In this document: positions 44,344 to 63,106 of the stretch, one piece after another
Layout of the letters: each line of letters opens with the position of its first letter
Numbering within the stretch: the stretch's first letter is position 1
Made by a program: the position numbers and the translations under genes
The notes under the pieces: generated by a model
Databases searched by the model: none
The model's input: the letters and a program-made list of their open reading frames with translations, nothing else
What the model was told of the DNA's origin: nothing
Assembly (NCBI GenBank): GCA_003149065.1
Contig: QGFZ01000001.1
Coordinates: 1-64,000, forward strand
From: Ruminococcaceae bacterium R-25
Lineage (GTDB): Bacteria > Bacillota > Clostridia > Saccharofermentanales > Saccharofermentanaceae
Reading direction: 5' to 3'
Length of the DNA: 64,000 bases

Positions 44344-45177
44344 TCAACCCTCCGCTTCAGCAACTGCATCTGATACAGCTGTTTCATAGTCAGTGATATC
44401 TGCCATATACAGGTTTACGCTGATCTTAAGTCTTGCATTTCCGGAATCAACGAGTTCCTTATAACCTGTTTCGGGATCGATCTGTTCTATCTTAGTTTTT
44501 TCCCATTCAAAGCTTGTGATACGAACAGAAGGCTTGGTGCAAAGATCGTCAATGAGTGCCTGGCAATCTTTTTGTTTTCCGGTAACTACGAGAGTCAGAT
44601 TAGCGCACTGTACTCCTGATGACGAAGTTGACTTGCTTTTGTTTCTGGCAGTTTCGTAAGGAGAAATAAGTGAATCTACAGTTGTAGTTTTAGTTGTTGA
44701 CGAAGCCGTGTTGCTGCCTGATGGAGTGGGAGTAGCGGTTGTAGAGATTTCGACTTTAGTATCACTCTTAGAACTGCTATCATTTGCTAAAGAAGAATAA
44801 ATATATGGTATTTCTTCAACCGCTGCTGAAGGCATTTTAATGGTCAGGTTCTCTGAGAAGAGACCTGATTTTAAAACATAAGATGTGACCATTCGATCGA
44901 TCTCTGAACTGTTCATAAGAGGATAAAAGTCAGAAGTGGATTCTTTGAAATCACTTACAGTCTTGTTATAAATATCTTCTCCGCTGGTCAAATTGATAAG
45001 CTTATTCTTGTATTGGCTTTGGGTTAATTGAGCCTGTTCGATCTTGTCGCTGGTAGCCATTATAGATTTAATATTCGGCCTTATCAGGTACCAGACAAAT
45101 ACAAATACCAATCCTGCGAAAAGAACTACAGCAATAGTCATCTTATCTTTTTTGCTGAGGTTTGTCTGCATAGCCAT
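44344..45177 (-). CDS. PilO-like type IV pilus alignment protein
   Basis: A 277-residue bitopic membrane protein. A single helix (about 14-33) is followed by a periplasm-side coiled-coil region (about 38-75) and a ferredoxin-like domain, the layout of PilO. The linker between (about 125-190) is low-complexity Ser/Thr. It lies between the PilM-PilN-like protein and the ATPase, where PilO is expected. Sequence match to PilO is weak, so assignment rests on architecture and context. Confidence 0.8.
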   Translation of the reverse strand: MAMQTNLSKKDKMTIAVVLFAGLVFVFVWYLIRPNIKSIMATSDKIEQAQLTQSQYKNKLINLTSGEDIYNKTVSDFKESTSDFYPLMNSSEIDRMVTSYVLKSGLFSENLTIKMPSAAVEEIPYIYSSLANDSSSKSDTKVEISTTATPTPSGSNTASSTTKTTTVDSLISPYETARNKSKSTSSSGVQCANLTLVVTGKQKDCQALIDDLCTKPSVRITSFEWEKTKIEQIDPETGYKELVDSGNARLKISVNLYMADITDYETAVSDAVAEAEG

Positions 45178-45178
45178 A

Positions 45179-46675
45179 TCAGTTTACCTCCTCGTTGGTT
45201 GCTGCATCTTGCGCTGTATCATTGGCTGCAAGAGTGCAAACGACATTGATCTGCCAATACTCACCTTTAGAGTCAATAGCATAACCTGTATAGTCAACGT
45301 TTTCGAAAATATCCATTGAAAGCAATTCTGCAATAAACTGGTTGATATCTTCAACCTCAGGAGATGATGCGGTAATTTTGAAAATGCCGGTTGTTGCATT
45401 ATAAGAATCAAAGCTAACATCAACATCATACTTCTTGGCAGCGGACTTGATCTTTTCATTAATTGAAGAATCAGGAACAGGATATGAATTTAGATATTGA
45501 TCCAATAAATCAACACCTCCCTGAATCTCACCCATCTCTGCCATATTGTCATACATAGAATCGTATTCGGCGACTTTTATTTTGGTGTTAGAGTTATTAA
45601 TGTATTGTTCTATCGCTTTAAGTTCAGAACTCTTGATTGCCTTGAAGGTAGCAGTTCCAGCATAGACTAAAACGAGAACTCCCATTATAGCTGCGAAAGG
45701 AATAATGAGTTTTTTCATTCCGCCTGCACCGCTCTTCTTTTTCTCCGACTGTTTTGAACTCGTGAGGATAGAGACACCATCGTTTATTTTGCGAAGGCCA
45801 GCAATCGGATAAATAAAGAAAGGATACTGGGAAGGATCATTTGCAATAGATGTTCCTGAAGGCGGCTGGGCAATTGAAATGTCAGCAGCGCTATCAATGT
45901 TGATAATGTCATTCGCCAATTGACTGACTTGATTATAAGTAAGACCGCAGAACATGATATCCTTAACCGTTTCAGTTAAGTGCTGTGCTGAAGTAAACTG
46001 TCTGATAGAAGAAATAGATGAATAGATCTCACGTGCAAACTCCGGTGTGCCTGGTTGAGCAAACACACGTGAAGTGGAGTCATAATAGTACTTTCCTTCT
46101 GCAAAGAAAATAGTAACAAGAGACTTTCCGTCAAGGATCATGTAGAGCAGAGTTTTGCCCTTTGCCTGCTTAGTAAAAAATTCAGTGGCAATTTGTACAC
46201 CATTATGAATCGTTTTCAACTTAAGACCGGCATTAGTAAAGATGTCAATGTATTTCTTAACAAAATCATTCTCAGCTGTCTCATAAACAACATGCTGTGT
46301 CTTAGCTTTATTATCCTTTGAAACTACATACCAGCCGGTAATGGGATTCTGGAATCTGCCGTACTCAGAATCACGTGTCTCGCGGTCAATGAAATCGGTA
46401 GTTTTCTTTTCAGGGAGTATAGGCGCATCAACTCTGTTAGCTCTCAGCTGAGGGCTGTTGATGATCAGCGTTACTTCCGACTTGGGGAGTTTGTTTGACT
46501 GCCAAGCCAGTTTTAAAGTTTCAGTTACACGTTCCTGATCCATTACAACGCCATTCAGAACAGCACCTTCCGGGAGAGGGGCAGATATCAGTTTTGATAC
46601 TTTAACACCGTCTCCGTTAGGTGATCCCGATGCTATCTGGATGTTGGTATTCGACAGAAATACTACTTCAGACAT
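45179..46675 (-). CDS. PilM-PilN-like fusion protein
   Basis: A 498-residue protein. The N-terminal about 300 residues look like an actin-like PilM/GspL cytoplasmic domain (start VVFLSNTNIQIASGS, then YMILDGKSLVTIFFAEG). A basic linker (KQSEKKKS) leads to a single transmembrane helix (about 321-343) and a C-terminal extracytoplasmic ferredoxin-like domain, the architecture of PilN. In most type IV pilus systems PilM and PilN are separate proteins that bind each other; here they appear to be one chain. The gene lies between pilC and the PilO-like gene. Confidence 0.8.
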   Translation of the reverse strand: MSEVVFLSNTNIQIASGSPNGDGVKVSKLISAPLPEGAVLNGVVMDQERVTETLKLAWQSNKLPKSEVTLIINSPQLRANRVDAPILPEKKTTDFIDRETRDSEYGRFQNPITGWYVVSKDNKAKTQHVVYETAENDFVKKYIDIFTNAGLKLKTIHNGVQIATEFFTKQAKGKTLLYMILDGKSLVTIFFAEGKYYYDSTSRVFAQPGTPEFAREIYSSISSIRQFTSAQHLTETVKDIMFCGLTYNQVSQLANDIINIDSAADISIAQPPSGTSIANDPSQYPFFIYPIAGLRKINDGVSILTSSKQSEKKKSGAGGMKKLIIPFAAIMGVLVLVYAGTATFKAIKSSELKAIEQYINNSNTKIKVAEYDSMYDNMAEMGEIQGGVDLLDQYLNSYPVPDSSINEKIKSAAKKYDVDVSFDSYNATTGIFKITASSPEVEDINQFIAELLSMDIFENVDYTGYAIDSKGEYWQINVVCTLAANDTAQDAATNEEVN

Positions 46676-46705: not shown

Positions 46706-47902
46706 TTACGATCCTGCACCGATTGTTTGATAGGACTGATATATCGGTTGAATGATAGAGATAATTACGAAACCTACGATTACAGCCATTACAACGATCA
46801 TTACAGGTTCAATGTATGAGGTCAGTTTGAGCAGAGCTTGCTTTGAATAGAAATCCAAATCATTTGCCACGGATTGAAGCATATTGCCGAGCATGCCGGT
46901 TTCTTCGCCAACCTTTATAGTTGAGGGAAGCTTTGATACAAACCCGTTTACTTCTTCTAGAGCTGAAGATAAAGGCGAACCACCGGCTACTTTCTTTTCA
47001 ACCTCATCAAACTGAGCCTCGATATATTTATTACCAATTGTGCTTCTTGATATTTCGATGCAACTGTGAATCGGAATGCCTGACAAATAGAGTGAACTCA
47101 TCGTTCTGGCAAATCTTGCAGAATAGATAACCTTTGTGAGCTTACCCCAGGCCCCCATAACCTTAATATGGTCGATATGATACTTAACTGCCGGCAGTTT
47201 TACGATAATCTTTCCAAATATGATGCCTAATACTACAATAACCAGCAAAACATACCATTTATGAGCAACGAAATCTGAAATACCCATAAGGATCCTGGTA
47301 GGTATTGGAAGGGAAGGTAATTGTGAAAACATTTCTTCAAACTGCGGCAATACATAACCGAATAAGATAGCTACAACGATAACTATCAAAACAGCAAGGA
47401 TCTTCGGATAAGTAAGGGAATTCTTAGCCTGCTGTTCCAGCTGGGATTCACTGGTATACTGATCGGCAAGACGGAGACAAGTAATATCAAGTGTTCCGGA
47501 TGTTTCAGCAGCTTTAATCATGAAGATGAGAAGAGGCGGGAAAGCAGGTTCTAACTCTTCCATCGCAATAGAAAGCGCTACACCCTGAACTATTCGGTCG
47601 CGAAGCCTTAAGAAAAGCTGCCTCTCATAATCACTGATGGATTCGTCATTGGCTATAATCTCAATGGCTTTAACAAGCGTAACACCAGCCTTGATAAGGG
47701 TACCAAGCTGACGACAGAAATCAGCGAGCTTAGGCTTCTTAAGAGGCTTTAATGCAACGTTCTTTTGAAGCGGTTTTGCTTCCAATAAAAGAAGACCAGA
47801 ATCGTGGAAACGTTTCTGCAAATCAGTCTCATCGTAAGCTTCGGCTTTGCCTTTGACGATCTTTCCTTTACTGTCCTGTGCCTGATATTTATATTCCGGC
47901 AT
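46706..47902 (-). CDS. pilC: Type IV pilus platform protein, PilC/GspF type
   Basis: A 398-residue inner-membrane platform protein. Two repeated GspF domains (about 65-190 and 270-395) each show cytoplasmic helices and a TM. The motif YQAQDSKGKIVKGKAEA at the N-terminus and ETSGTLD / ETGMLG in the repeats are family hallmarks. It connects the ATPase to the pilin pool. It is the second gene of the minus-strand assembly operon. Confidence 0.95.
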   Translation of the reverse strand: MPEYKYQAQDSKGKIVKGKAEAYDETDLQKRFHDSGLLLLEAKPLQKNVALKPLKKPKLADFCRQLGTLIKAGVTLVKAIEIIANDESISDYERQLFLRLRDRIVQGVALSIAMEELEPAFPPLLIFMIKAAETSGTLDITCLRLADQYTSESQLEQQAKNSLTYPKILAVLIVIVVAILFGYVLPQFEEMFSQLPSLPIPTRILMGISDFVAHKWYVLLVIVVLGIIFGKIIVKLPAVKYHIDHIKVMGAWGKLTKVIYSARFARTMSSLYLSGIPIHSCIEISRSTIGNKYIEAQFDEVEKKVAGGSPLSSALEEVNGFVSKLPSTIKVGEETGMLGNMLQSVANDLDFYSKQALLKLTSYIEPVMIVVMAVIVGFVIISIIQPIYQSYQTIGAGS

Positions 47903-47928: not shown

Positions 47929-48423
47929 CTATTCCACATCGTAATTTAGCAGTTCTAACGAGTAATATACTTTGAAATTACCTTCGAGACCGGATTGAGT
48001 ATTAGTCCTTTCTCCGGAATCAACATATATTACCTGGTACAACCCTTTTCTATATTCAAATTTAATAGGCGCATTGGTTGTTTCGTCCCATTCATACAGA
48101 ATGACAGTACCGTTACGACGTGAGATCTCGGCGATCTTCTCTGCTGCACCTTTAGACAATCCGGTTGGATCGTTGGGATTATATATGGAAGACATATCCC
48201 CATAAAACTCCGTGCCGACGGCTCTTAAAGCTTTGCGTATGTCTCTAGCTTCTTTATAAGCCTGTCTGGCACCGGTATCCAGAGCAAATCCCAAAGCCAG
48301 AATAGTTGTCGAACTGAAAATGACCACTGTAACTACAATGATCCTAAGTGCTTCTCTGAAATTGCTACGCTTATAAAACCGCGTACCTTCAATCTGAACT
48401 TCGTTGGATTTGCTATCTGACAC
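47929..48423 (-). CDS. Single-pass membrane protein at the head of the pilus assembly operon
   Basis: A 164-residue protein. A basic N-terminus with a hydrophobic helix (about 27-50) is followed by a soluble domain with TEFYGDMSSIY and a Tyr-rich end. The helix lacks a prepilin cleavage motif (no G before the helix, no Glu at +5), so it is probably not a pilin. The GTG start is used because GAGGAGG lies ten bases upstream. Being first in the pilus operon suggests an assembly or priming role. The family is not recognised. Confidence 0.75.
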   Translation of the reverse strand: MSDSKSNEVQIEGTRFYKRSNFREALRIIVVTVVIFSSTTILALGFALDTGARQAYKEARDIRKALRAVGTEFYGDMSSIYNPNDPTGLSKGAAEKIAEISRRNGTVILYEWDETTNAPIKFEYRKGLYQVIYVDSGERTNTQSGLEGNFKVYYSLELLNYDVE

Positions 48424-48659: not shown

Positions 48660-48873
48660 TTCTGTTCGGTTTCAGCTAACGGAAAAATTGAAAAAATGTA
48701 ATTACATCTGTGTTGTTCTTTTTGATAAGACGAAAAATGACTACAAGTAATTTTAAGATTATTATTTACCTTCTTGTGACTAATTGTTCACAGAACGCAA
48801 CCCTGCAATTATTGATGTGAAATTATCGTGGGTATATAATTCAAATATATTTTATAAAAGGATTTTGTTTTTT

Positions 48874-49329
48874 ATGAAGCTTAAGAGCAAGACCACATTA
48901 TATCGCAGATCTTCCGATATTCTCCGAAGCAAAAAAGGTACGAGTATCGTGTTTGTTTCAATAATTGCGATCATAGTTTTGACAGCTGTAGTTGTACTAA
49001 GGACAACTACAAGTTCTTTGTGGGCTTCTGCCGATAAACAATACTATCAGGATAGGGCATATGTAATGGCAACCAGTATGGGTTCATCTATAAATGCTCT
49101 TATAAACGATGGAACGATAAAACTTGATGACTATAAGAATTCTAATCAGCTTCAAATACTTCAAGACAATGCTGATAACGGCACTGTTTCTGTAACAGTT
49201 ACCCATGACGAAGAAGGAAATGGTTATCTGGTAGAGGTAAAGGCTGAAATGCCAAATTCCGTTTATATCTATCGGGCTTACTATTATAAATCCGCAACTA
49301 CTAGTTCATATAAGAGGCAGATTTTATGA
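48874..49329 (+). CDS. PilX-like pilus accessory membrane protein
   Basis: A 151-residue protein. A basic N-terminus (RSKKGTSIVFVSIIAIIVLTAV) and a hydrophobic helix are followed by a soluble domain rich in Asn/Asp. The helix has G before it, but T and not F/M follows and no Glu lies at +5, so it resembles PilX/PulK-type accessory proteins more than a standard prepilin. The ATG at 48874 follows AAAAGGA; an upstream in-frame TTG gives a spurious leader. Its stop overlaps the next start by four bases (ATGA), so the two are translationally coupled. Confidence 0.75.
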   Translation: MKLKSKTTLYRRSSDILRSKKGTSIVFVSIIAIIVLTAVVVLRTTTSSLWASADKQYYQDRAYVMATSMGSSINALINDGTIKLDDYKNSNQLQILQDNADNGTVSVTVTHDEEGNGYLVEVKAEMPNSVYIYRAYYYKSATTSSYKRQIL

Positions 49330-49676
49330 AATGCATTTGGAAAACAGGCAAAGGCATAAAAGATAATTCCGGCGAGACAATGGTAGAAGTGCTTGTGGCA
49401 TTTACTTTGCTTTCAATACTTCTCGTTATTTTTTCGCAAGGAATAGCGATGGCTACAAAATCTGAGTTTAATGCAGATAAGAGTAGAAACGGTGCGGATG
49501 AAGCAATGAAAAACGCACAGGATTATATGGCTGAAGATGATGCAGGTAAACCATATGATCAGGTTCAAGGGTATTTTGACGATAGAATAAAACGAATGTC
49601 TTATTCTTGTACAGTTGACGGTCAAACATATAATTACGTGTATTATGAGCCGATTTTGTTATCAAACGGCGGGTGA
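49326..49676 (+). CDS. Minor prepilin-like protein
   Basis: A 116-residue protein with a type IV prepilin-like helix. After SG comes ETMVEVLVAFTLLSILLVI: G at -1, Glu at +5, but Glu at +1 where Phe or Met is usual. The rest is a short globular domain (about 75 residues) with no cysteine pair beyond C67-like positions. It likely is a minor pilin in the tip or initiation complex. It overlaps the preceding gene and precedes another minor pilin. Confidence 0.82.
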   Translation: MKCIWKTGKGIKDNSGETMVEVLVAFTLLSILLVIFSQGIAMATKSEFNADKSRNGADEAMKNAQDYMAEDDAGKPYDQVQGYFDDRIKRMSYSCTVDGQTYNYVYYEPILLSNGG

Positions 49677-49680
49677 TCTT

Positions 49681-50457
49681 ATGCGAAGAATAACCATGAG
49701 AAAGAGTAAAAAAGCTATAACGCTTGTTGAACTTGTTGCTGCAATGGCTTTGATGGCAATATTTCTTTTGGCATGTACTTCATTAATATATCCTGTAGTC
49801 AAGATTTATAATCACATGAATGAAATGAGCCGTTCCCAAATACTTGCAGATACTGTAGTCGATTCACTTCGTGCTGAATGTGCAAGAACATATATCTCTT
49901 CTAAGAATGATGTATGGATATCAAATAGATCTGGGGATGAAGTTATGGATAGTTTTCCTGGTAGTACTACATTTCCCAGTGGAGTTCTTGTGATTCGAAA
50001 GAGTTACGAATATTGCGAGACATTGTCTACTAATTATGCTATTTCCGGTACGCTCTGTAATACTATTTATGATGCGGAGAACACGGATGAAATCGATCCT
50101 TTGACAGGAAATCTTACAAGTCGTGCTATCTATACAATGTTTGATACTGTTCCTGTTTCAGTTGATCCGGAAGCTGCAATAGCATCTCAGAAAGGGCATT
50201 TGCACTACGGTTTCTTCAAAGTTGGAGCTGAGGCAAATAATGGAGTTTTCCCATCGGAACTCTATGATTTCACAGATCCTTTTATGGATCCGACATATGG
50301 AAATTTCACTGTAGAGCTTCAATTCCATGATATTAAATATGATGCTTCCGATATGCCTGTATATGTTCTTGTCGATGTGAAAATATTTGATGGATCGAAG
50401 AATATTTATACAAGAAGTAATGTTGTATTGAGTTTTGCATCCCGAGAGTGGCAATGA
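49681..50457 (+). CDS. Minor prepilin-like protein with alanine at -1
   Basis: A 258-residue protein with prepilin leader MRRITMRKSKKA then ITLVELVAAMALMAIFLLA. The cleavage would be after Ala (position -1), a substitution known to reduce peptidase cleavage in some systems, with Glu at +5. The larger C-terminal domain (about 40-258) is beta-rich. It lies between a small minor pilin and the giant pilin. The ATG at 49681 follows a GGGTGATCTT sequence with weak SD. Size and position fit a PilW/GspJ-like minor pilin. Confidence 0.82.
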   Translation: MRRITMRKSKKAITLVELVAAMALMAIFLLACTSLIYPVVKIYNHMNEMSRSQILADTVVDSLRAECARTYISSKNDVWISNRSGDEVMDSFPGSTTFPSGVLVIRKSYEYCETLSTNYAISGTLCNTIYDAENTDEIDPLTGNLTSRAIYTMFDTVPVSVDPEAAIASQKGHLHYGFFKVGAEANNGVFPSELYDFTDPFMDPTYGNFTVELQFHDIKYDASDMPVYVLVDVKIFDGSKNIYTRSNVVLSFASREWQ

Positions 50458-50718: not shown

Positions 50719-53700
50719 ATGAGAGTCGTAAGAACAATGAATTCAAATACTAAAAAAAGACACGTCACCCGTGGCTTTTCTTTAGTTGAACTTATTGTGG
50801 TTATCGCACTTATCGTGATCCTGGCTACTGTTGGTTTGGTTAGTGCTATAGGATATGTTAAGCATTCAAAGTTTGATAAAAACGAGAAGAATGCCATTAC
50901 TGTATATCAGACAGCGCAAACCGCTTTGTCTCATATGACATCTGCCGGTACTGTTGACGGTTGGGTACGTGATCTTATCTCTGAAGCTTCTATTGATCAT
51001 ATAAATGCTTTGGAACCTATTGATAATCCTGAAGCTAATGAAACAGTAGGCAAGACAGTACATCTTACTTATAATCCCGGAAAGCCGAATAAAGAGAGCG
51101 TGATCCTCTACGATTTGTTGTCCGGTTATTTTTATGATCAGACAATTTTCAATGGTACTATTTCTGTCGAGTTCTATATCAGCATGACATATGATGCTAA
51201 TAAGATTCCTTATTATTCTGCAAGAGTAAAGTCGGCATTTTATAGCATAGAGAATACTGCAACTATCGGTTGGGATGATACTTGTCTTAATGGTTCTACA
51301 GATGGTCTTCCTGATAGAGACACCAATAGAAGATATACTACCACTTTCGTAGGTTATTATGATGGCACTGAAGCTTCAGCTAAGCCGAAGGTCGTTTCTG
51401 TTTTCCTTCCCAGGTCTCAGGACTTTGTTTTGGATGGTCATATTGTCGGACCTACAGTTGATCCTAATGCAAGTGCTGAAGGATATTTATTTAATCTTCG
51501 TAACGGTGAGACCCTTGATGTGTCTTGGGCTATGTTTGATCAAGACGGTAAGCTTCATGGAGATCTTGACCGTAATGAAGAATTAACTATTAAATTATGT
51601 GATGCGCAATCCGGCAATGCTGATTCTTTCAGTGATGTTGTTTTAACAATCGGTCCGGATACTTTAGACGATGTCAGATTTGATATATTAAAAAATAGAT
51701 CAACTCATGAAATTGTCGTAGAAAGAATAAATTCATATTTAATAACAAGAACTTCTTATGAGTCTACTGTAAGTGTCAAGGTAAAGCGTGGTAGTACTGA
51801 AAATGTATATGTATTTCCGATTACCGTAACTAAGGTGGAAGGCGATGGCAGGACCGGATGTCCTGTTGATGCAGAAGGTAATCCGGCAGCATATATTGAA
51901 TACAAGTTATCTTTGGATTGTATGATGATCCGTTCGGATGAAACTCAGAATAATAAAGTTCGATACAATTCCGAAAGACTTTTCTCAAATGATAATACTC
52001 ATTCGCTTCCAAGAAATTTTTATGCAACTATTTCCGGAAGGTTTGATTATTGTACAAATGATCAGGAAGAGCCTGTTAAGCTCTCTGTACCTTTAACTTA
52101 TGCAGCAAGAGCCATGGATGATCCTGTTTATTACACGGGAATGAATGGCACAACATATGTTTATGATCTTCCTAACCTAGATGTTGAAGGTAAGACAGCC
52201 AATGACGAAGACAATAATAATGATGAAGGTATTACCGGTAAGTGTATAGTTAATACACTGTTTGGTGATGCTTACTATAATGATCTTGTAGAAGGAACTT
52301 CATGGACTTCAAATGGCGGAAGTGCGGTAATAACTTCATTCAGACACTTATATAATATTCGTTGGATAGATTCACAAAAGACAGCTGATTACCATATTAT
52401 TCACAATCTTGATTGGTATGTTCATAGCGGAAACAACTATGTAAGCGAAGTCAAGGTCTTTATGTCTCACGTTAGAGAAGATAGAGATAATTATGGTTAT
52501 GACGGAGTTCGTTATCGTTCGCCTGCTCAGAACAATAATCTGTATGTAGTATCATTTCCTGCAATATGTAAGCTTGGTGCAAATCAAACAATTTCATCAA
52601 TGTCAGTTGCCAACAGAACTACTTACGCAATCAATAATGTTCAAATGCGAACGGCTTCTTTTAGAAGCGGTGATGCCGCATATGGTTTGGTATGTACAAA
52701 TTATGGTGTCCTCTATAATTTATATATTAATAACCTTAATATTATCCTTGCTGATGTTAAAGACGGATCAGCAAGTGATTATTCACTTACATCTGCTAAT
52801 TTTAATCCTAATACTACAGTAAATATTAGTACCGGCGGTTCATTGTTGCTTGATGATAAGAGTGTTGGCGGACTTGTAGGTGGTAATTACGGTTTGGTTG
52901 GCCAGGCTGATATAACTGATACTGAGAATGTTATTCGTATGAATAACTGCATCATTATGAGTGGTAATTATTGGCAGTTGGCTAATTTAAGGAAAGATGG
53001 CAAAGAAGCAAGTTCTTCAACTGGCGGCGTTATCGGCTATAACGAAGGAAAGAGTAGTGGCGCACAATCGACTTATGGAATTATCGAAATGCGCGGAGCT
53101 TTCGTTGTCGTTGGTGGTGGTACTTGTGTAGGTGGTGTCATTGGAAAAAACAATGCAAATACTTCTGCAAGACTTATAACAAACGGCGATAAAGTAAAGG
53201 GTACTACATGCGAGTATTCGCTTCCGGCTGAAAATCATAATACAACGAGCTTAAGTTGTGTTGTAGCTGGTCGTGGTAGTGTCGGCGGTGCTATAGGAAT
53301 GTTTGAGAAACATTCTTTAAACTATTCTGTAGGACATGTCTTTGCAAAAGAAGAAGTGACCTATGATTCTGTTACAGGGCAGCCACGTTTCGCTAAAAGA
53401 AATGATAGCGATTATCAGATTGACGTTACAATTCCTGCAAAGGGATTGGTTTTGAAGGTCCCTCATGCGACAAATGATAATGATACAACTCCTGTTGGCG
53501 GAGCTATAGGCACTTGGAACGTTTGTAACGGGTCTTATGCGAGCATACGTGTTCATAATTACGGCAGTGTTATTTCTGCGGATACCACGAGAAAGATCGC
53601 TTGTGGAGCAGCAGTTGGAGAAGATATAAATTGTACTATATCCAAGGTGTTTATCAATGTCGTCAATGAAAAGGGCTCAAGACTCGGTTCTATGTCTGAT

Positions 53701-56700
53701 ACTGCAGGTCCGAGACGTGTTGGTGGTGCTTATGGTTATATCGGTTGTACTTCAACAGACCGTACTATTGCCATTGACATTAGTAATGATGGACACATCG
53801 TTGCAAAAGGAACCGGTAATGGTTACGGCGAAGGTGCAGGCGGTGCAATCGGTGCAACTTCTCATCTCGTTAAAGTTGATTTCTTTGTCAAAGCAATAAA
53901 TAAATCCAATTCGTTGATCAAAGACTTGGGCGGCAGTTTGAATAATTCCAGCGGAACCGGTGGCGTTATCGGTTCTATGGGATATGGTGATACTACGGAG
54001 TTAACTGGAACTTCTGTGCTGTTTGCTGAAAACCATGGAAGTATTAATGGTCAATGCCGAGTTGGCGGAGTTTTGGGTAACGCTGCTCGTACCTCAGGCA
54101 ATATTTATTCAGTTAACTATGGTACTATAACCGGAACATATTATGTCGGCGGTGCAGTCGGAAGACATATTTATAATCATTCAGGTACTATCCAATCTAT
54201 TTTAGATAGCGGATGTTCAATATCTGGTGCTAACTACGTAGGCGGAGCAACAGGAAGATTATCCTACTTTATGGATAATGCCGTTGTTAAGACTATAGTA
54301 CGTGGCAATTCTACAATAGAAGGATCCCTTTCTGCAGTTGGTGGAATTTGCGGTGATTTGCGAATTGCCGGCAGCGGTATCGGTGGCACTATAAAACTTA
54401 GTGGCGACAGTTCGGATCCTATACTTACTGTTAACGGCAAAGATGGTATAGGTGGTGCCATCGGCATTTTGAGATCTGATTTAGTTAATAGTGCTAAGAT
54501 CGCTACTCCTGATCAGAGCAGTACAAATAAGCTGGCTGTACACATAAGCGGCACAAATTACGTAGGTGGTGCTGTTGGATGCCTTAATTCGGCAGGCAAT
54601 ACTGTAGATGAAACCACGCCTAGTAATCTTTTTAACAATACTGCGGCGATAAAGGAGATTTTGGTTACAGTCAGCGTAAAACTTAGTCCGAAATCATTTG
54701 TGTATGGAACAGGTGAGAATGTTGGTGGTGCTGTAGGTGCTGTCATTGGTAGGTATTTAGGAGAGGATTATACAAAATTTGGAGGAATAATTACCGTATT
54801 GACTGCTTCCGGTTCGACCTCGAATTCCGCATATATCCGTGGTAAAAAATATGTGGGAGGAGCAGTTGGCCGCTTCGATAGTGTGGTACCAACCATATCA
54901 AATAATAATGCCACTGGAAATATCCAAGCAGATTTTTCTGCTGCTCGTTGGACTATTGAGGCAACAGTTTCAGCCGGTACTGAAGCTGATGTAGGTGGTG
55001 CTGTCGGTTATTTCAAAGCAACAATAGATAGGAAATATGGCGTTAACGACAATGCTTACCGCATTTCGGTAAATCTTGGACCAACTGATGTAAAGTCTGC
55101 TGGTTATAATGTTGGCGGCGCTATTGGCAAGAATCAGGTAAGAAACGGCATTGTTTCTGTTGGCGGCATTAGTGGTACTGTATCCGGTCAATATAATGTC
55201 GGAGGCGCTATAGGATTAACTGAATATCAGTTATATGAGGTAAATGCTATTGTAGCTTCAACGGGAATCATAGAAGCAACCGGCTCTTCTCCTGAGGCTT
55301 CTTCCTATCTTACTGGCCGTGATAAAGACGGCTCAAAAGGAGATGGTTCTAATGTTGGTGGAGCTATCGGTAAATATAGTTTTACCGGAAGCGATACTAT
55401 TACTATTACATCAAAAATCAATGCTACGGTAAGCGGTAAGATTTTAGGTCCCGGAAATAATGTAGGTGGTGTTGTAGGTTATTGCTATACAACTAAAAAC
55501 AAGCATTTAATTAGAAATATTTCAGCTGTTCTGCAAGGTAATGCCATTGTTAGTGGTGCTGATAATGTCGGCGGAGCAATGGGTTTCAGTTTGAGTAATA
55601 TTACCAATGTAAGATCCAATATTTCCGGTACTTCCAGTATCGAGGGTAAATATCATGTCGGTGGAGCTATTGGCTGGACTTATGCTATCGAACAAGCGAC
55701 CGGTGCCAATGTTCTTGCACAGAATCCTGAGGATCTTAATCCGGATACCCTTACTATAGCTGAGCTTGAAACAAAACTAAATAGTCTATATAAGTCATCT
55801 GGTCGTATAGCTAATATTGTAGCAACTATTTCTGCGGATAAAGCGTTGATAGGTGTTGCATCTATCGGCGGAGCTGTTGGTCAAAGCGGATACAAATCTA
55901 ATATTGGCAATAGTGGTAATACTTATGCATCGCCCGCACTTGTAAATGTTCAAGCAAATCTTAATACAGGTTATCTGTTTGATCCTTTTGAAACAGGTAT
56001 CGGTCTTAATGAGTTGAATCCTATAGATAAACCCAAAGCAAGTGTTCAGGGTGCATATGGTAATGCATGCATTGGCGGTGTAATTGGACTTGTTGTAGAT
56101 GGTCGAATTAACAGCGTAAGATTAGATGGTACAGGTGGTACTGTAAACACTGATTCCCTTTATCCTTGCCCGGAGATTTCAATGAGTGGTGCTGTTCTTA
56201 TGGCAGCCAAGGGCCATTCTATTGGAGGAATAATTGGACAAATCGGTCTTTTGGGATATGGTAAAGATGTTGGTATTGAAGATAGTGGTGCACAGAATGT
56301 TACCGTTTCAGAAATAAGTGCATCTGATACGCTCGGAATCTGTGTAGTATCAATGAATGATGCTAACAATATCGGCGGATGGATAGGAAGCGGCTATGGT
56401 GTTTTCGGTGGCATAGGAAACAGATTATATAGCGATTATAAGAATACGAATACTCGCGCTATTTATAATGTAAATAATATTAAATATATTTACAGTAAAG
56501 GAAACAATGTTGGTGGTTTCTGTGGCTATTCTCGTGGATATAAAAAGAATAGTAATAAAGATAATAATAACAACCAACCGGGTCATGCAACTTGGGCAGA
56601 TATTAACGTTAATCTTAAAAATGCAACGATATGCGGCAGCACTGCTGTTGGAGGTGCATTTGGCCGTGCTGAAGGTGTCAAATTTGCCTGGGGTGCAATA

Positions 56701-57051
56701 AATGTCAATTTGACTGATCACTCCATTATTGGAGATCCTTCAAGGAGCAATATATGCAAAGAGGCTGGCGGAGCAATTGGATATTTGAGAAATCAGACGG
56801 TGGAATTTGGTGTACCGGTTACTGTAACGATTGATTCCACATCAAAGGTCAGGGCTAATGGCAAATTGGATGGATCTGGTATTAGTTACGGAGTAGGCGG
56901 TGCTTTTGGAAGATGCAGCGGAGTATTCGCCAGACTTAAATATGATGGATCAAATTACTATAGTTGTGTTGGTACCATAACTGTTAATTCTGCAGATCCT
57001 AATAATATTTCAGTATATTCATTGTCTTCCAATGCTGGTGGTGTTATTTGA
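50719..57051 (+). CDS. Giant prepilin-leader adhesin, N-terminal 2,110 codons, ended by an in-frame TGA
   Basis: Starts MRVVRTMNSNTKKRHVTRG|FSLVE, with cleavage after G19, F20 at +1 and E24 at +5, followed by a hydrophobic helix (about 24-45). Thus it enters the type IV pilus pathway although it is more than ten times pilin size. Residues about 50-600 hold mixed beta domains. From about 660 onward a GLUG-like repeat recurs about 33 times, each with the core VGG(A/V/I)(I/V)G and a preceding loop, suggesting a beta-solenoid adhesin stalk. The frame closes with TGA at 57049-57051, directly after GGVI. In every other repeat the next residue is Gly, so GGA to TGA is the likely change. The continuation frame is open for another 964 codons. 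The ATG at 50719 follows CAGGAGATGTC. Confidence 0.9.
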   Translation: MRVVRTMNSNTKKRHVTRGFSLVELIVVIALIVILATVGLVSAIGYVKHSKFDKNEKNAITVYQTAQTALSHMTSAGTVDGWVRDLISEASIDHINALEPIDNPEANETVGKTVHLTYNPGKPNKESVILYDLLSGYFYDQTIFNGTISVEFYISMTYDANKIPYYSARVKSAFYSIENTATIGWDDTCLNGSTDGLPDRDTNRRYTTTFVGYYDGTEASAKPKVVSVFLPRSQDFVLDGHIVGPTVDPNASAEGYLFNLRNGETLDVSWAMFDQDGKLHGDLDRNEELTIKLCDAQSGNADSFSDVVLTIGPDTLDDVRFDILKNRSTHEIVVERINSYLITRTSYESTVSVKVKRGSTENVYVFPITVTKVEGDGRTGCPVDAEGNPAAYIEYKLSLDCMMIRSDETQNNKVRYNSERLFSNDNTHSLPRNFYATISGRFDYCTNDQEEPVKLSVPLTYAARAMDDPVYYTGMNGTTYVYDLPNLDVEGKTANDEDNNNDEGITGKCIVNTLFGDAYYNDLVEGTSWTSNGGSAVITSFRHLYNIRWIDSQKTADYHIIHNLDWYVHSGNNYVSEVKVFMSHVREDRDNYGYDGVRYRSPAQNNNLYVVSFPAICKLGANQTISSMSVANRTTYAINNVQMRTASFRSGDAAYGLVCTNYGVLYNLYINNLNIILADVKDGSASDYSLTSANFNPNTTVNISTGGSLLLDDKSVGGLVGGNYGLVGQADITDTENVIRMNNCIIMSGNYWQLANLRKDGKEASSSTGGVIGYNEGKSSGAQSTYGIIEMRGAFVVVGGGTCVGGVIGKNNANTSARLITNGDKVKGTTCEYSLPAENHNTTSLSCVVAGRGSVGGAIGMFEKHSLNYSVGHVFAKEEVTYDSVTGQPRFAKRNDSDYQIDVTIPAKGLVLKVPHATNDNDTTPVGGAIGTWNVCNGSYASIRVHNYGSVISADTTRKIACGAAVGEDINCTISKVFINVVNEKGSRLGSMSDTAGPRRVGGAYGYIGCTSTDRTIAIDISNDGHIVAKGTGNGYGEGAGGAIGATSHLVKVDFFVKAINKSNSLIKDLGGSLNNSSGTGGVIGSMGYGDTTELTGTSVLFAENHGSINGQCRVGGVLGNAARTSGNIYSVNYGTITGTYYVGGAVGRHIYNHSGTIQSILDSGCSISGANYVGGATGRLSYFMDNAVVKTIVRGNSTIEGSLSAVGGICGDLRIAGSGIGGTIKLSGDSSDPILTVNGKDGIGGAIGILRSDLVNSAKIATPDQSSTNKLAVHISGTNYVGGAVGCLNSAGNTVDETTPSNLFNNTAAIKEILVTVSVKLSPKSFVYGTGENVGGAVGAVIGRYLGEDYTKFGGIITVLTASGSTSNSAYIRGKKYVGGAVGRFDSVVPTISNNNATGNIQADFSAARWTIEATVSAGTEADVGGAVGYFKATIDRKYGVNDNAYRISVNLGPTDVKSAGYNVGGAIGKNQVRNGIVSVGGISGTVSGQYNVGGAIGLTEYQLYEVNAIVASTGIIEATGSSPEASSYLTGRDKDGSKGDGSNVGGAIGKYSFTGSDTITITSKINATVSGKILGPGNNVGGVVGYCYTTKNKHLIRNISAVLQGNAIVSGADNVGGAMGFSLSNITNVRSNISGTSSIEGKYHVGGAIGWTYAIEQATGANVLAQNPEDLNPDTLTIAELETKLNSLYKSSGRIANIVATISADKALIGVASIGGAVGQSGYKSNIGNSGNTYASPALVNVQANLNTGYLFDPFETGIGLNELNPIDKPKASVQGAYGNACIGGVIGLVVDGRINSVRLDGTGGTVNTDSLYPCPEISMSGAVLMAAKGHSIGGIIGQIGLLGYGKDVGIEDSGAQNVTVSEISASDTLGICVVSMNDANNIGGWIGSGYGVFGGIGNRLYSDYKNTNTRAIYNVNNIKYIYSKGNNVGGFCGYSRGYKKNSNKDNNNNQPGHATWADINVNLKNATICGSTAVGGAFGRAEGVKFAWGAINVNLTDHSIIGDPSRSNICKEAGGAIGYLRNQTVEFGVPVTVTIDSTSKVRANGKLDGSGISYGVGGAFGRCSGVFARLKYDGSNYYSCVGTITVNSADPNNISVYSLSSNAGGVI

Positions 57052-59946
57052 GTGATGGAAAATGTTAATATGTCCGGATATAAATTTAATGCAACGGATT
57101 ATTGGAGTTTTGCTAATAATGTAACAGTACAAGCAGATGGTGATAATGCTTGCGTTGGCGGATTTGTCGGAAAAATCAGTTCGCTCTCAAGTGACATGTA
57201 TAATTGCTACAGCTTAGGTAAAGTTTCTGTTCGTGCTAACGGTAATAATTCGTGTGCCGGTGGCTTTGTCGGATATGCGACGTTGGCAGATGATAACAGG
57301 AAAATTAATACTTGTTACACAACTGCTAAAGTTATTTCATTATCAGGTGCATATACCGGTGGTTTTGTCGGTGAATTTATTCGCGGCACAATATCCAATT
57401 GTTATGTCGGAGGACATACTTTCCAGGGTAGTTATGTATCCGGTGAGGGCAATGTTACCGGTAAAGGTAATGTAGGTGGTTTTATCGGAGCAACTAATGG
57501 AACAAATACTATTTCTATAAGCGATTGCTATTCAACTGCATCTGTTCTTGGTACCGGAAATAATGTTGGCGGATTTATCGGTAGTTCTTCTGCGAACACC
57601 AAGATCAGTAAATGTTATTGTACAGGCCGTGTTATTGGTTCTGATGAAAATGTTACCGGTTCATTTGCAGGAACTATAGGAGCCGCAAATCTTAATAACA
57701 TTACGAACAATCAAGTAATGCGTAATATTAACAAGGGTGACTTCCCGTTGATCGGACGTTCGTGGACTGCAGAAGTTGCTGATAGTAAAATCAAATATGC
57801 AGATGATACGGAGATTGGAGCAGGCAGATCAGATACCGGCCATCCGTTTGATACAGCATTAACAGATCCGTTTACTCTCCGTGCAGTAATCGGCACAGAC
57901 CATTATGGAGACTGGCCTTTGCCGAGTGGACAGAATACTATTGATGATGCAGTAGTTCAGATCTATGTTCAGACCGGTGAAAACGATCAGGGCGAACCGA
58001 TTTATGATTGGATAGATTTTAAAAATGATACATACGAATACGAATTCAACGGTTCATTTGTAAAACTCGATGAGACCCAGATAAGGCTTCGTGTTCAGGG
58101 CGAGACACTTACCCAGAATACAGATTATATTGTCTATTACCGGGATAATAATAAGGTTGGTCAGGCTACGATTTCGTTTGCAGGAAAGAGTGGCAGTAGT
58201 TATTCCGGTGCAATTAGCAGAACCTTCAATATCACTCCTGCGAATATTGATGGTGCAGAAGCTGTGTTTAATGAGCAGTCTCGTGAATATACCGGTGCGC
58301 GCATTAATCCAGACGTAACAGTTACTTACAATGGTATTAATTTGATATATGGTACGGATTATACCTTTGCATTTGATAGAGACGGAAATGTCGATGAAGG
58401 TTATGATAATGACAATATTAATATCGGCATAATGAATGTTTACATTATTGGTAAGGGTAATTATGTTGAAAGTAAATTGATCGGTCAGTTCGAGATAGCT
58501 TCTGTTGATCTGAGTAATCTTGATGATACTGATATTGATCTTATAGGTGCAGATAACCTTGTTTACAACGAGGTAGACGGTGTAGCTGTTGAGCACTGTC
58601 CTGGTGTTGTTGTCAGATATAACGGTCAAACTCTCAAGGGAACAACTAACCCTGAAGAATATAACGAATGTGACTATGTTGTTTCTTATGAAAGCAATAC
58701 TACGGCAGGCACCGCATATCTTGTCATAACAGGTACTGCGGATCCTTCAATAGGAAAGGGCTCGGTTTATACCGGCATAAGGAGAGTGGAATTCACTATT
58801 TCACCTGCAGTCAATACATGGACAGAAGATGCCGCTATTGATGGATGGATCTATGGCGAAAAGCCTAAGGCTCCGACCGGAAAACTGAAATTTGGCGAAA
58901 TTGTTTATGAATACTGTTATGATTTGGATTGTAATAACAAGATAGACGATATCAGTGCAGTTGGTGTGGGCCAGTATTATGTGAAAGTGTCTGCTGAAGA
59001 AAGCGAAAATTATACGGGACCGACATCTACTATATTAAGCTTTACAATAACACCTTTGGAGATTACGGGTGCTTCTGTTACTGTAGACCCGGGTGAGTAT
59101 CTTTATACCGGTTCTCCAATTGATATTGAAAAGAAAAATATTATTGTTACTGTCGGCGAAGGTGATTCTGCATTTGCGCTTGGACCGGATGATTTTACTA
59201 TTGAGTCTTATGCGCCTTCCAATCACACAGATGCTGGTACTGTAACGATAACGTTAAATGGTGCCGGAAATTATAAAGGTACTGCTCAAGGCACATTCAT
59301 TATATATCGTGAATTTACAGTCACATTTATGGCAAACGGAGAGCAATATGATAGTAAACAGATAAGAGAAGGCTACAAAGCTAGTGCGCCTGAAGATCCC
59401 ACTCCTGCAGAAGGTTATAGATTTGGCGGATGGTACACAGGTTCTGATGTGAAGTATACCTTTAATGAAGCAGTTACGGAGAATATTACACTCTATGCAA
59501 AATGGATCAGAATCAGGACGATTAAATTTGAAACAGGAGATCCTAATGTCATAATAAGTCCTAATCCGCAGATTGTTGATGAGGGAACTTATGCTACTCG
59601 ACCTGCCGATCCGAAACGTGATGGTTATCAATTTGACGGATGGTATCACAATAATTCGCCATACGGATTTGATACTAAAGTTTATGATGATATTACGCTT
59701 CAAGCCAAGTGGACACCTGTTTATACGATTAGTTTCGTTACAGGAGATGGAACTGCGATAGATCCACAGTATGTACCGGAGAATGGTGTAGTAACTGAAC
59801 CTGCAGAGTCTCCTAAACGTAACGGATTTGTATTCGCAGGGTGGTATACTGACGAAGATTGTACTATACCTTATGTTTTTACAAAGCCAGTAACGGGCAG
59901 CTTCCCGTTATATGCTAAATGGGACGTCGATCCCAATAGCGAATGA
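57052..59946 (+). CDS. C-terminal 964 codons of the giant adhesin, separated by the TGA
   Basis: In the same frame as the preceding gene. It continues GLUG-like repeats (five clear VGGF(V/I)G cores, to about residue 195). Then come Ig/MBG-like beta domains (about 280-700) and three InlB-type B-repeats (about 755-960), each ending in a (L)YAKW- or QAKW-type motif and holding GGWY/DGWY/AGWY. No signal peptide, prepilin leader or LPXTG is present, so as a separate protein it could not be exported. The GTG at 57052 and ATG at 57055 directly follow the stop, so coupled reinitiation is possible, with only a weak GGTGG upstream. Best read as the severed end of one 3,075-codon gene. Confidence 0.85.
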   Translation: MMENVNMSGYKFNATDYWSFANNVTVQADGDNACVGGFVGKISSLSSDMYNCYSLGKVSVRANGNNSCAGGFVGYATLADDNRKINTCYTTAKVISLSGAYTGGFVGEFIRGTISNCYVGGHTFQGSYVSGEGNVTGKGNVGGFIGATNGTNTISISDCYSTASVLGTGNNVGGFIGSSSANTKISKCYCTGRVIGSDENVTGSFAGTIGAANLNNITNNQVMRNINKGDFPLIGRSWTAEVADSKIKYADDTEIGAGRSDTGHPFDTALTDPFTLRAVIGTDHYGDWPLPSGQNTIDDAVVQIYVQTGENDQGEPIYDWIDFKNDTYEYEFNGSFVKLDETQIRLRVQGETLTQNTDYIVYYRDNNKVGQATISFAGKSGSSYSGAISRTFNITPANIDGAEAVFNEQSREYTGARINPDVTVTYNGINLIYGTDYTFAFDRDGNVDEGYDNDNINIGIMNVYIIGKGNYVESKLIGQFEIASVDLSNLDDTDIDLIGADNLVYNEVDGVAVEHCPGVVVRYNGQTLKGTTNPEEYNECDYVVSYESNTTAGTAYLVITGTADPSIGKGSVYTGIRRVEFTISPAVNTWTEDAAIDGWIYGEKPKAPTGKLKFGEIVYEYCYDLDCNNKIDDISAVGVGQYYVKVSAEESENYTGPTSTILSFTITPLEITGASVTVDPGEYLYTGSPIDIEKKNIIVTVGEGDSAFALGPDDFTIESYAPSNHTDAGTVTITLNGAGNYKGTAQGTFIIYREFTVTFMANGEQYDSKQIREGYKASAPEDPTPAEGYRFGGWYTGSDVKYTFNEAVTENITLYAKWIRIRTIKFETGDPNVIISPNPQIVDEGTYATRPADPKRDGYQFDGWYHNNSPYGFDTKVYDDITLQAKWTPVYTISFVTGDGTAIDPQYVPENGVVTEPAESPKRNGFVFAGWYTDEDCTIPYVFTKPVTGSFPLYAKWDVDPNSE

Positions 59947-60278: not shown

Positions 60279-60773
60279 ATGAAAAAGTTAGGTAAGTCAT
60301 CAAAGAAGGGTTTCACATTAGTAGAACTCATCGTAGTCATTGTTATCCTTGCAGTTCTCGCAGCTATGCTCGTTCCTGCACTTGTTGGATACATTGACAG
60401 AGCAAAGAAGGAAAAGGATTATCAGACAGCTTCTACAGTTTATGCAGCAGCTCAGGCAGTTCTCACAGAACAGTATGGTAAGAATAATATTACTAAAGAT
60501 ACTAATGGTAAGTATTCTGTAACATCAATCACAAAGGACCAGTTTAAGGCTGAAGACAAGACAACAGATGCAGTTATTGAATTAGCTGGTGTTGATCCCA
60601 ATAAGGTATCAGGCTACACATTTACTGTTTCGGATACTAATCTTGTTATTTCTTGGGGTTCAGTAACTATCAAGAATGGTGGTGCTGGCGGTGAAGCTGG
60701 TGTTACATACTATTTGTACAAGGACGGCACTTGGGGTGTTACACCAACTACAGATGGTAATAAGCCCGCTTGA
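60279..60773 (+). CDS. pilA: Major type IV prepilin
   Basis: A 164-residue pilin. Leader MKKLGKSSKKG|FTLVELIVVIVILAVLAA, with cleavage after G11, F12 at +1, E16 at +5. The long hydrophobic alpha helix is followed by an amphipathic region (YQTASTVYAAAQAVL) and a small beta-rich head ending GTWGVTPTTDG. No cysteines, so no disulfide loop. The strong RBS AAGGAGG and own terminator suggest high expression, as expected for the main fibre subunit. It lies just downstream of the giant adhesin and upstream of the second peptidase homologue. Confidence 0.95.
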   Translation: MKKLGKSSKKGFTLVELIVVIVILAVLAAMLVPALVGYIDRAKKEKDYQTASTVYAAAQAVLTEQYGKNNITKDTNGKYSVTSITKDQFKAEDKTTDAVIELAGVDPNKVSGYTFTVSDTNLVISWGSVTIKNGGAGGEAGVTYYLYKDGTWGVTPTTDGNKPA

Positions 60774-60843: not shown

Positions 60844-60943
60844 TATGTCTGAATGTTTATGCTGGGATCACTAACTCTTTTTGCATTTCCTCACACAGTG
60901 TATAATCAAAGTCAGAAATATCCCGTTAAGGAGAATACTTGTT

Positions 60944-61729
60944 TTGATTTTTTCTTATCCTTTGTTTGAGATACCTTTTATAGGAATATATTTAATTATA
61001 TTAGCTTTTATGTTTGGAGCTGTTTTCGCAAGCTTCATTACATGTACGGCTTGGCGTGTTGTCAGAGGTGAGGACTGGATGTTAGGTCACAGCCACTGCG
61101 ATACTTGCGGTCACGAGCTTTCCACGGCAGACCTTTTCCCTATCATTTCATATATTGCTTTGAAGGGTAAGTGCAGATACTGCGGTTCGAAGGTTCCGCC
61201 GAGAGATCTGATTTTCGAGATCATATTGGGACTGTTATTTGCAGGAACGCTTGCACTGCACGGCGTTGTAGATGCAGCAGTCATTGCGGCTCTGGCACTT
61301 GAGATGCTCTTGCTCGGATTGTCTCTGGCGGACTGGGATTCCGGCGTTATTCCTGACGGATTTCTGGCAGCGATCTTGGTAGTCTGGATCCTTACGGTAG
61401 GATTCAGGCAGGACATTCAGAGATTTGCGATAGAGGGCGTTATTGCTTTTATGGCATGCGGTCTGCTCATGGCAATCGCAACTGCAATCATCGGCAAGAT
61501 AATGAAAGCCAAAGTCAGCTACGGCCCGACAAAGCTTGCCATGTGCCTCATGCTTTTCCTTGGCTTTAAGGGTTCAGTCGTAGCTTTGGGCGTTGCGGTT
61601 GTGCTGGGAATCTTTTTCGCGCTTGTCTGCAAGTCGAAAAAGAGAAGGATCTCACTCGCACCTGCAATCTCTATAGGCTTTGTTGTTGCTTTTCTGGTTA
61701 AGGATGCTTTGGCGGTCTTTTTCGCATAA
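60944..61729 (+). CDS. PilD-like prepilin peptidase homologue lacking the second catalytic aspartate
   Basis: A 261-residue polytopic protein. The N-terminal domain has the two cysteine pairs of full-length prepilin peptidases (C52/C55 in CDTCG, C77/C80 in CRYCG) and DLFPIISYIALKGKCRY, which is the methyltransferase part. The first A24 aspartate is present, D130 in LADWDSGVIPD. At the second site, GGGD-K-L is replaced by SYGPTKL (residues 192-198), with P195 at the Asp position, so proteolysis should be lost. The TTG at 60944 is chosen because AAGGAG lies 10 bases upstream. It may N-methylate pilins processed by the short peptidase at 42072. Confidence 0.88.
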   Translation: MIFSYPLFEIPFIGIYLIILAFMFGAVFASFITCTAWRVVRGEDWMLGHSHCDTCGHELSTADLFPIISYIALKGKCRYCGSKVPPRDLIFEIILGLLFAGTLALHGVVDAAVIAALALEMLLLGLSLADWDSGVIPDGFLAAILVVWILTVGFRQDIQRFAIEGVIAFMACGLLMAIATAIIGKIMKAKVSYGPTKLAMCLMLFLGFKGSVVALGVAVVLGIFFALVCKSKKRRISLAPAISIGFVVAFLVKDALAVFFA

Positions 61730-61735
61730 TCTCAT

Positions 61736-63106
61736 ATGAACAAACTGAAACCCGACAAACTATGGATAATCTATGCAGTAGTTTTCGTGACGTATATCTG
61801 CATTGCTATTTTTGCAGGGATCCATCATGAACCGTGGGCGGATGAGGCCCAGGGCTGGCTCATTGCACGTGACTGCCATTCGCTGATCGAGATCTTCCGC
61901 GCCGTAAGGTACGAAGGCACATTGCCGACATGGCACCTGATCAATAAAGTCTTTCAGCTGGCCGGACTCGATTATGAACACATATTTGTAATCCCGCTCG
62001 TGTTCTCGGCAATCGGAGTTATCCTGCTCTTCTTTACGGATGCACCGCTATTAGCCAAAGTAATGCTGCCGTTTTCATTTTTCGCCGTTTACCAGAACAG
62101 CGCTGTAGCGAGACAGTATGCACTGGTTTTCCCGGCCATGATGCTTATCGTATTATTTTATAAGAAGCGTTTAGAGATGCCCATCAGGTATCATCTGTCT
62201 TTGTTCTTGCTCGCAATAACCAGCTCATACGGAATGGTAATTTCGTGCTCATTTATGCTCTGGGATTTCATATGTATGCTGAAGAGCATGTTCAGAGATA
62301 CTGCTTACAAAAAATTCAAGATCCCGTTTTTCGCAACAGGAATCGTAATCCTGATCGTAACTTTCCTGTCATTGCCGCCGGATGATTCTGCTCCCGGTCT
62401 GGTGCTGACATCTTTTTCGAAAAATGCTACCACCGCATTGCTGTTCAATATAAACAGCACGATAGGCCAGTATTTATTCCTGATCTTCATGCTGGTATTC
62501 CTTGCTTACTATTTCAGGCACAACCTTATCCAGGCAGCCGTTATAGCTGCACCGCTCGTGCTGTTTATGGCCTTTTTCTACCAGCGGGAATGGCATATGA
62601 CATATCTGTTCTTCCTTGTAGTCTCGCTGATGATCATTTTCCGTGACGAATCGAAAAGAACGAAGCACAAGTTTGAGAACGGCTTAAATATTGCGGCTAA
62701 TTGCATTGTGGTCTTGCTGCTTGCGGTACAGTGCTATACCGGTTTCTATTCTGTCTATTATGATTATCAACATGCATATTCTTCGGCTAAAGAAATAGCC
62801 GAGTTCTTAAAACCGTATGCTGAATCCGGCGCAAGTATAAACAGAAAAGGTTTTGATGCTGTTGCCATTTCGCCTTACTTTGATGACCATTTATATTCGA
62901 ACGATCCTAACGGCAAATCGTTTTTTATATGGAGCTCATCTGTTTCGAATGATGTTTTTTCAGAAGAATATCCGGATGTAGTCGTTACGCCGGAATATAT
63001 CGAAGGGTTTGATTCAAAATACGATGTGCATTTATTCAACAGCCACATGATATTTAAGCTGGACGAAGTTGAGTCAGCCCCTTGCGTAGTCTATGTGAAG
63101 AAATAG
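61736..63106 (+). CDS. GT-C-like integral membrane glycosyltransferase family protein
   Basis: A 456-residue membrane protein with about nine helices. The first luminal loop contains EPWADEAQGWLIARD (D36-E37), a DE pair typical of the lipid-sugar-binding first loop of GT-C glycosyltransferases such as ArnT/PMT relatives. The gene starts six bases after the peptidase homologue's stop, so it is probably cotranscribed. A role in glycosylating pilin or the adhesin is attractive by position but has no direct support. It could instead act in wall or lipid modification. Confidence 0.8.
   Translation: MNKLKPDKLWIIYAVVFVTYICIAIFAGIHHEPWADEAQGWLIARDCHSLIEIFRAVRYEGTLPTWHLINKVFQLAGLDYEHIFVIPLVFSAIGVILLFFTDAPLLAKVMLPFSFFAVYQNSAVARQYALVFPAMMLIVLFYKKRLEMPIRYHLSLFLLAITSSYGMVISCSFMLWDFICMLKSMFRDTAYKKFKIPFFATGIVILIVTFLSLPPDDSAPGLVLTSFSKNATTALLFNINSTIGQYLFLIFMLVFLAYYFRHNLIQAAVIAAPLVLFMAFFYQREWHMTYLFFLVVSLMIIFRDESKRTKHKFENGLNIAANCIVVLLLAVQCYTGFYSVYYDYQHAYSSAKEIAEFLKPYAESGASINRKGFDAVAISPYFDDHLYSNDPNGKSFFIWSSSVSNDVFSEEYPDVVVTPEYIEGFDSKYDVHLFNSHMIFKLDEVESAPCVVYVKK

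Follow-up and report, generated by a model that had tools for sequence, protein, structure and literature searches.

It is unsettled how type IV pili come to bind new targets, and whether so thin a filament could bear a module of 300 kDa is far from evident. Both matters are raised by a gene in a 64,000-nucleotide stretch of the genome of Ruminococcaceae bacterium R-25 (contig QGFZ01000001.1, positions 1 to 64,000; here called the window), in which a frame at 50719 to 59946 on the plus strand opens with a prepilin leader and runs on through GLUG motifs, Ig-like domains, and InlB-type B-repeats. A preliminary description of this DNA had proposed a pilin-anchored giant adhesin next to a complete pilus assembly set. 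What kind of protein is this, where would it sit, and how does its binding module change? Our analysis suggests that the family probably consists of giant modular minor pilins, most likely located in the tip complex, that display an interchangeable surface adhesin.

RESULTS

A type IV pilus locus surrounds the giant gene

Pilus genes flank the giant gene on both sides, as expected for a modular pilin. The minus strand upstream carries a second prepilin-peptidase-like protein named from its sequence (42072 to 42692), the PilB extension ATPase (42655 to 44340; PF00437), a PilO-like protein assigned by position and size (44344 to 45177), a 498-aa PilM-like protein that probably includes a PilN part (45179 to 46675), the PilC platform protein, also named from its sequence (46706 to 47902), and a 164-aa membrane protein, orf164, that always stands before pilC and had no match in Pfam or NCBIfam (47929 to 48423). 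On the plus strand, three minor pilins precede the giant gene: a PilX/GspK-like protein (48784 to 49329, start probably at 48874), which lacks Glu5; a PilV/GspI-like protein (49326 to 49676; N_methyl); and a PilW/GspJ-like protein (49615 to 50457, start probably at 49681). Downstream on the same strand are a major-pilin-like prepilin (60279 to 60773; N_methyl) and a protein conserved in the relatives' loci that we take, from sequence motifs, to be the prepilin peptidase (60881 to 61729). The assembly set is therefore present on both sides of the gene as proposed, but "complete" was too strong, given that pilT is absent from the cluster in the window and a PilT-like ATPase is encoded at another locus.

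That second type IV pilus locus of the R-25 genome (G000:C2, about 603800 to 613300; L222:5797-15266) comprises pilB2, the PilT-like ATPase (370 aa), pilC2, PilM/N/O-like proteins, and two minor pilins. The pilin genes are also interspersed with genes for multi-pass membrane or surface enzymes, namely a glycosyltransferase-like protein at 61736 to 63106 of the window and, in relatives, a sulfatase-family protein and a YfhO protein (L055:1352-3766; L058:10253-12775); these enzymes may decorate pili or wall polymers.

Leader, domain architecture, and predicted fold

The start at 50719 is preceded at a suitable distance by a Shine-Dalgarno-like AGGAG. The 19-residue class III leader (50719 to 50775) reads MRVVRTMNSNTKKRHVTRG followed by FSLVE, with cleavage expected after G19 and glutamate at +5, and it scored above the cut-offs of both Pfam N_methyl (21.9 versus 21.2 bits) and TIGR02532 (21.5 versus 16.3 bits). 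The elements of a class III signal peptide (Gly or Ala at -1, Glu at +5, and a hydrophobic stretch) are all present and are conserved in the aligned homologues, none of which was seen to have exchanged the leader for a Sec signal peptide. Behind the leader lies a pilin module with a long alpha-1 helix and a beta sheet in the model (mature residues 1 to ~216; 50776 to 51423), followed by a beta domain (51424 to 52320) and a GLUG beta-helix, the first ~30 motifs of which occupy 52321 to 57048. Ig-like beta-sandwich domains (approximately 57949 to 59307) and three InlB-type B-repeats (59314 to 59943; Flg_new, PF09479, E 2.5e-42) complete the frame. Non-pilus domains thus follow the pilin module, as in modular pilins. 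We counted 36 VGGxxG-type GLUG motifs in the whole frame against 0.9 expected from shuffles, close to the 38 or so of the preliminary description, whose start codon, prepilin site, Ig-like domains, and three B-repeats were likewise upheld. Pfam Glug (PF07581), which presumably corresponds to entry IPR011493, reached 42.4 bits in the C-terminal part (curated cut-off, 20.5) and had no match at E 0.01 in the N-terminal part, though the modelled fold matches there.

AlphaFold models (mean pLDDT 78 and 76) predicted a 55-residue N-terminal helix (residues 3 to 57), then pilin-like strands, the beta domain, and the beta-helix, with Ig-like beta domains in the C-terminal part. Foldseek returned no match for the 981-residue N-terminal model at E <= 0.001, and a second aligner then matched its beta-helix to 3n6z (Z 23.2 over 265 residues, 3.4 A) and to the IgA1 proteases 7uvk (Z 22.6) and 7uvl (Z 21.4). 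The model of the C-terminal part also matched 3n6z (Z 22.6), and its B-repeats matched InlB (2y5p; Z 10.5, 1.8 A). Given that pilins were not clearly listed in PDB fold searches with the whole N-terminal model, the putative pilin fold rests on the leader, the helix, and the sheet. By our own estimate (~80 coils at 0.48 nm), the beta-helix would be about 40 nm long, with the C-terminal domains beyond it.

Two other identities were ruled out. The protein is not an M26 IgA1 protease, given that no peptidase domain, including the catalytic Peptidase_M26, was found in Pfam or NCBIfam. Nor is it a sortase-anchored surface adhesin: it starts with a prepilin leader, and its frame ends in a B-repeat (...LYAKWDVDPNSE) with neither LPXTG and a hydrophobic tail nor any other C-terminal anchor, which leaves the pilin helix as the only evident anchor.

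An in-frame stop interrupts the R-25 copy

The protein had been described as one of about 3,075 codons, which missed an in-frame TGA at codon 2111 (57049 to 57051, plus strand) inside a GGxxG motif. The frame consequently consists of two open reading frames, one encoding 2,110 aa of the giant modular pilin (50719 to 57051) and the other a 964-aa continuation (57052 to 59946) with a possible GTG start, no leader, and the last GLUG motifs, the Ig-like domains, and the B-repeats. The residue aligned to the TGA is glycine in six relatives, and the relatives' frames are open (about 2,430 to 3,780 aa, a single uninterrupted frame in nearly all), indicating that the stop is private to the R-25 genome. 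Recoding was ruled out, given that TGA is the ordinary stop of conserved neighbouring genes such as pilB, and the standard code therefore applies. We also found no sign of homopolymer phase variation, either here or at a frameshift in the giant gene of a relative (G100), as neither gene contains a long homopolymer. The 964-aa part is unlikely to be a separate surface protein, given that it has no leader. A GTG/ATG lies directly 3' of the TGA, and re-initiation is possible on that account.

Two origins of the stop come into question, a nonsense mutation and an error in the base or sequence. We see about an even chance that sequencing or assembly introduced it by mistake, or that it belongs to a minority strain, and that the real protein has 3,075 aa. 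One lone lesion in a 9.2-kb frame that is open everywhere else, in a family with open frames, fits this explanation, which has to be set against an assembly of only seven contigs with 99% completeness and against the kind of change involved, since substitutions are not the commonest long-read error type. A real nonsense mutation, with the R-25 gene a decaying pseudogene and the adhesin lost or crippled, is a serious alternative to which we assign slightly less than an even chance. It would account for a stop at a glycine-aligned motif position and for a downstream part without a leader, but 3,075 codons contain no second lesion, the adjoining pilin and machinery genes are intact, and the truncated product retains the pilin module and ~30 of the 36 motifs, so it may still work. 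Unless the stop is a sequence error, it deletes the last 965 residues, and the product, if made, would be the truncated protein of 2,110 aa. For the family, the proposed giant adhesin, anchored by a pilin and encoded next to the pilus genes, is well supported, with the qualification that the R-25 copy is interrupted.

The family is linked to pilus genes across genomes

Relatives were found with a profile of the N-terminal 570 residues, searched against the contigs of whole genomes; a contig search with the whole protein as the query gave no matches. A giant or short form occurs in 37 of the 85 genomes of the rumen genus. The long form accounts for 26 genomes and the short form, which has 474 to 556 aa, ends inside the beta domain, and lacks the GLUG helix, for 11. 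The pilC gene is present in 36 of the 85, so that the whole locus is patchily distributed in the genus, and 35 of these 36 also carry the giant or short form. Three genomes do not match, namely G034, whose pilC is only partial, and G014 and G089, in which the gene lies near contig ends. Imperfect long-form copies are those of R-25, with its TGA; G100, with its frameshift; G013, split over two contigs; and G089, which appears to run off the contig end. In G100, the giant gene (L193:5412-14467) is frameshifted near L193:9540, away from any homopolymer, into overlapping frames of 1,476 and 1,636 aa. Among the 46 best genomes of the genus, 22 have a pilC of this pilus type.

Throughout the genus, the giant gene is linked to orf164-pilC-pilM/N-pilO-pilB and to the X, V, and W minor pilins. 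Three Lachnospiraceae (L063 to L065) encode versions of 2,310 to 2,420 aa and preserve, to the extent that their contigs cover it, the gene order X, V, W, giant, orf164, pilC, pilM/N, pilO, pilB. In another family of the class, one genome (G393/L223) encodes a version of 3,284 aa with X, V, W, a major pilin, a peptidase, and pilC as its neighbours. The preliminary description had looked to homologues with the same leader and repeats beside pilB/pilC for support, and they exist in the 26 long-form genomes of the genus, the three Lachnospiraceae, and the one genome of another family.

The short form comes with a change in a neighbouring pilin. The PilW-like minor pilin has 236 to 304 aa in all 25 long-form genomes in which it was found, and in short-form genomes it has ~950 to 1,640 aa and carries DUF285/BspA leucine-rich repeats (presumably the BspA-type entry, IPR026906). 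Wherever the PilW gene of a short-form genome was located, in eight of eight cases, it had this load, the other three genomes being unscorable, and Cna_B also occurs on PilW in one of three short-form proteins scanned. In a pilC tree, the short forms make up one clade (100/96), and the long-form Lachnospiraceae lie outside the genus. Most simply, a single switch replaced the GLUG load of the giant pilin by a leucine-rich-repeat load on PilW. The mutual exclusivity of the two loads is suggestive rather than statistically shown, given that the change of carrier maps to one clade and hence represents a single evolutionary event.

Pilus tip or cell wall

In the preferred reading, the leader and alpha-1 helix would direct processing by the prepilin peptidase and building into the type IV pilus, where the giant would most likely join the adjacent minor pilins X, V, and W in a tip complex. 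Its pilin module would display the long GLUG beta-helix, tipped by the Ig-like domains and B-repeats, as an interchangeable surface adhesin. We infer leader processing, tip location, adhesion, and the ligand, which could be plant fibre, mucus, or other microbes. The tip-complex role is suggested by the analogy with Streptococcus sanguinis and by the rule that a subunit without Glu5 caps the tip complex (PMC10191384); the PilX-like protein in the window lacks this residue. The truncated R-25 copy and the frameshifted G100 copy are points against this reading.

The subunit could also stay in the membrane as an anchor, outside any filament. We consider it unlikely that the protein is such a membrane-anchored, wall-spanning adhesin, which uses its pilin leader and helix for nothing more than export and anchoring. 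The predicted beta-helix would be long enough, by our estimate, to cross a monoderm wall, the pilin helix is the one evident anchor of the protein, and within a filament so bulky a module could get in the way of other pilins. A role at the pilus tip nevertheless fits better with the constant linkage to pilus assembly genes and minor pilins, the co-occurrence with pilC, and the comparable load on PilW in one clade.

Exchange of the adhesin module between sister genomes

Upstream of the giant gene and through its first 704 nt, the DNA of two sister genomes, G001 and G090, is 93.7% identical; the rest of the gene has no blastn similarity, and 93.75% identity resumes just 3' of it. The break, at nt ~700 (codon 235), falls in the linker after the pilin module and is sharp within about 20 nt, with residue identity dropping from 48/50 to 22/50 across it. 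The replaced parts share ~47% protein identity and the same architecture. In a second pair, G061 and G100, the machinery is 92.7% identical in DNA up to nt ~214 of the giant gene; past this point, protein identity is no more than 39 to 49% for the giant and for the X, V, and W pilins, and DNA similarity returns at the major pilin. Similarity between the short-form genomes L207 and L209 breaks ~217 nt into PilW. These sequence comparisons indicate that the adhesin module is exchanged wholesale at the boundary between pilin and adhesin while the anchor and the machine are retained. The gene is single copy in the R-25 genome, with no second giant copy or donor cassette, so the donor would be another strain or species. 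Chimerism of metagenome-assembled genomes is possible for single cases, and the match on both flanks counts against it for G001 and G090. Rapid divergence in place under diversifying selection, which would explain why the replaced parts still align with the same architecture, is quite improbable next to a breakpoint that sharp with 93.7% DNA identity on both sides.

DISCUSSION

We tentatively propose, at somewhat under even confidence, that the pilus tip acts as a dock for giant adhesin cassettes that are swapped whole through horizontal recombination where pilin and adhesin meet and are carried on either of two tip pilins, only one of which is loaded at once. If this is so, binding specificity would change by module swap with the machine untouched. 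The genomes offer natural experiments in G001 and G090, which have near-identical machinery and the same anchor with different modules, and in the clade with the other tip pilin loaded. Tip-complex assembly, the limits of pilin cargo, and the attachment of rumen bacteria would become directly testable.

The closest known systems are PilB and PilC of S. sanguinis, modular pilins of a tip-located complex with a vWA and a lectin module, respectively, and a 2021 census listed 264 modular pilin architectures, including IPR012902-IPR011493, with IPR026906 among the frequent modules (PMC8179133, PMC9934059). Like PilB and PilC, the R-25 family joins a further, C-terminal module to a prepilin leader and pilin module, in a monoderm pilus locus. 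However, S. sanguinis PilB is ~50 kDa and the census extreme 860 aa, compared to about 2,400 to 3,800 aa here. In the R-25 family, moreover, sister genomes have the entire module replaced, and either of two minor pilins can bear the load. The predicted repeat fold resembles the GLUG beta-helix of IgA1 proteases (7uvk, 7uvl) and Bacteroides ovatus BACOVA_03286 (3n6z) at Z 21 to 23, but the giant pilin has no peptidase domain that we found, and its beta-helix is attached to a pilin. The C-terminal repeats share the fold of the Listeria InlB B-repeats, which here make up the distal end of a pilin.

In shufflons, cassettes are inverted inside a single locus; with no second copy in the R-25 genome, exchange here must come from outside. 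PilV of IncI-type plasmids resembles the giant in being a minor pilin of a type IV pilus in which a conserved portion is followed by an exchangeable C-terminal adhesin (PMC9045228). Beyond the 2021 census, giant GLUG pilins were not described in the literature searched, which left most subscription papers outside. The idea of modular pilins is already published (Raynaud 2021); as far as the literature searched shows, what is new is the size of these proteins, the wholesale exchange between sister genomes, and the fact that one or the other of two tip pilins can be heavily loaded.
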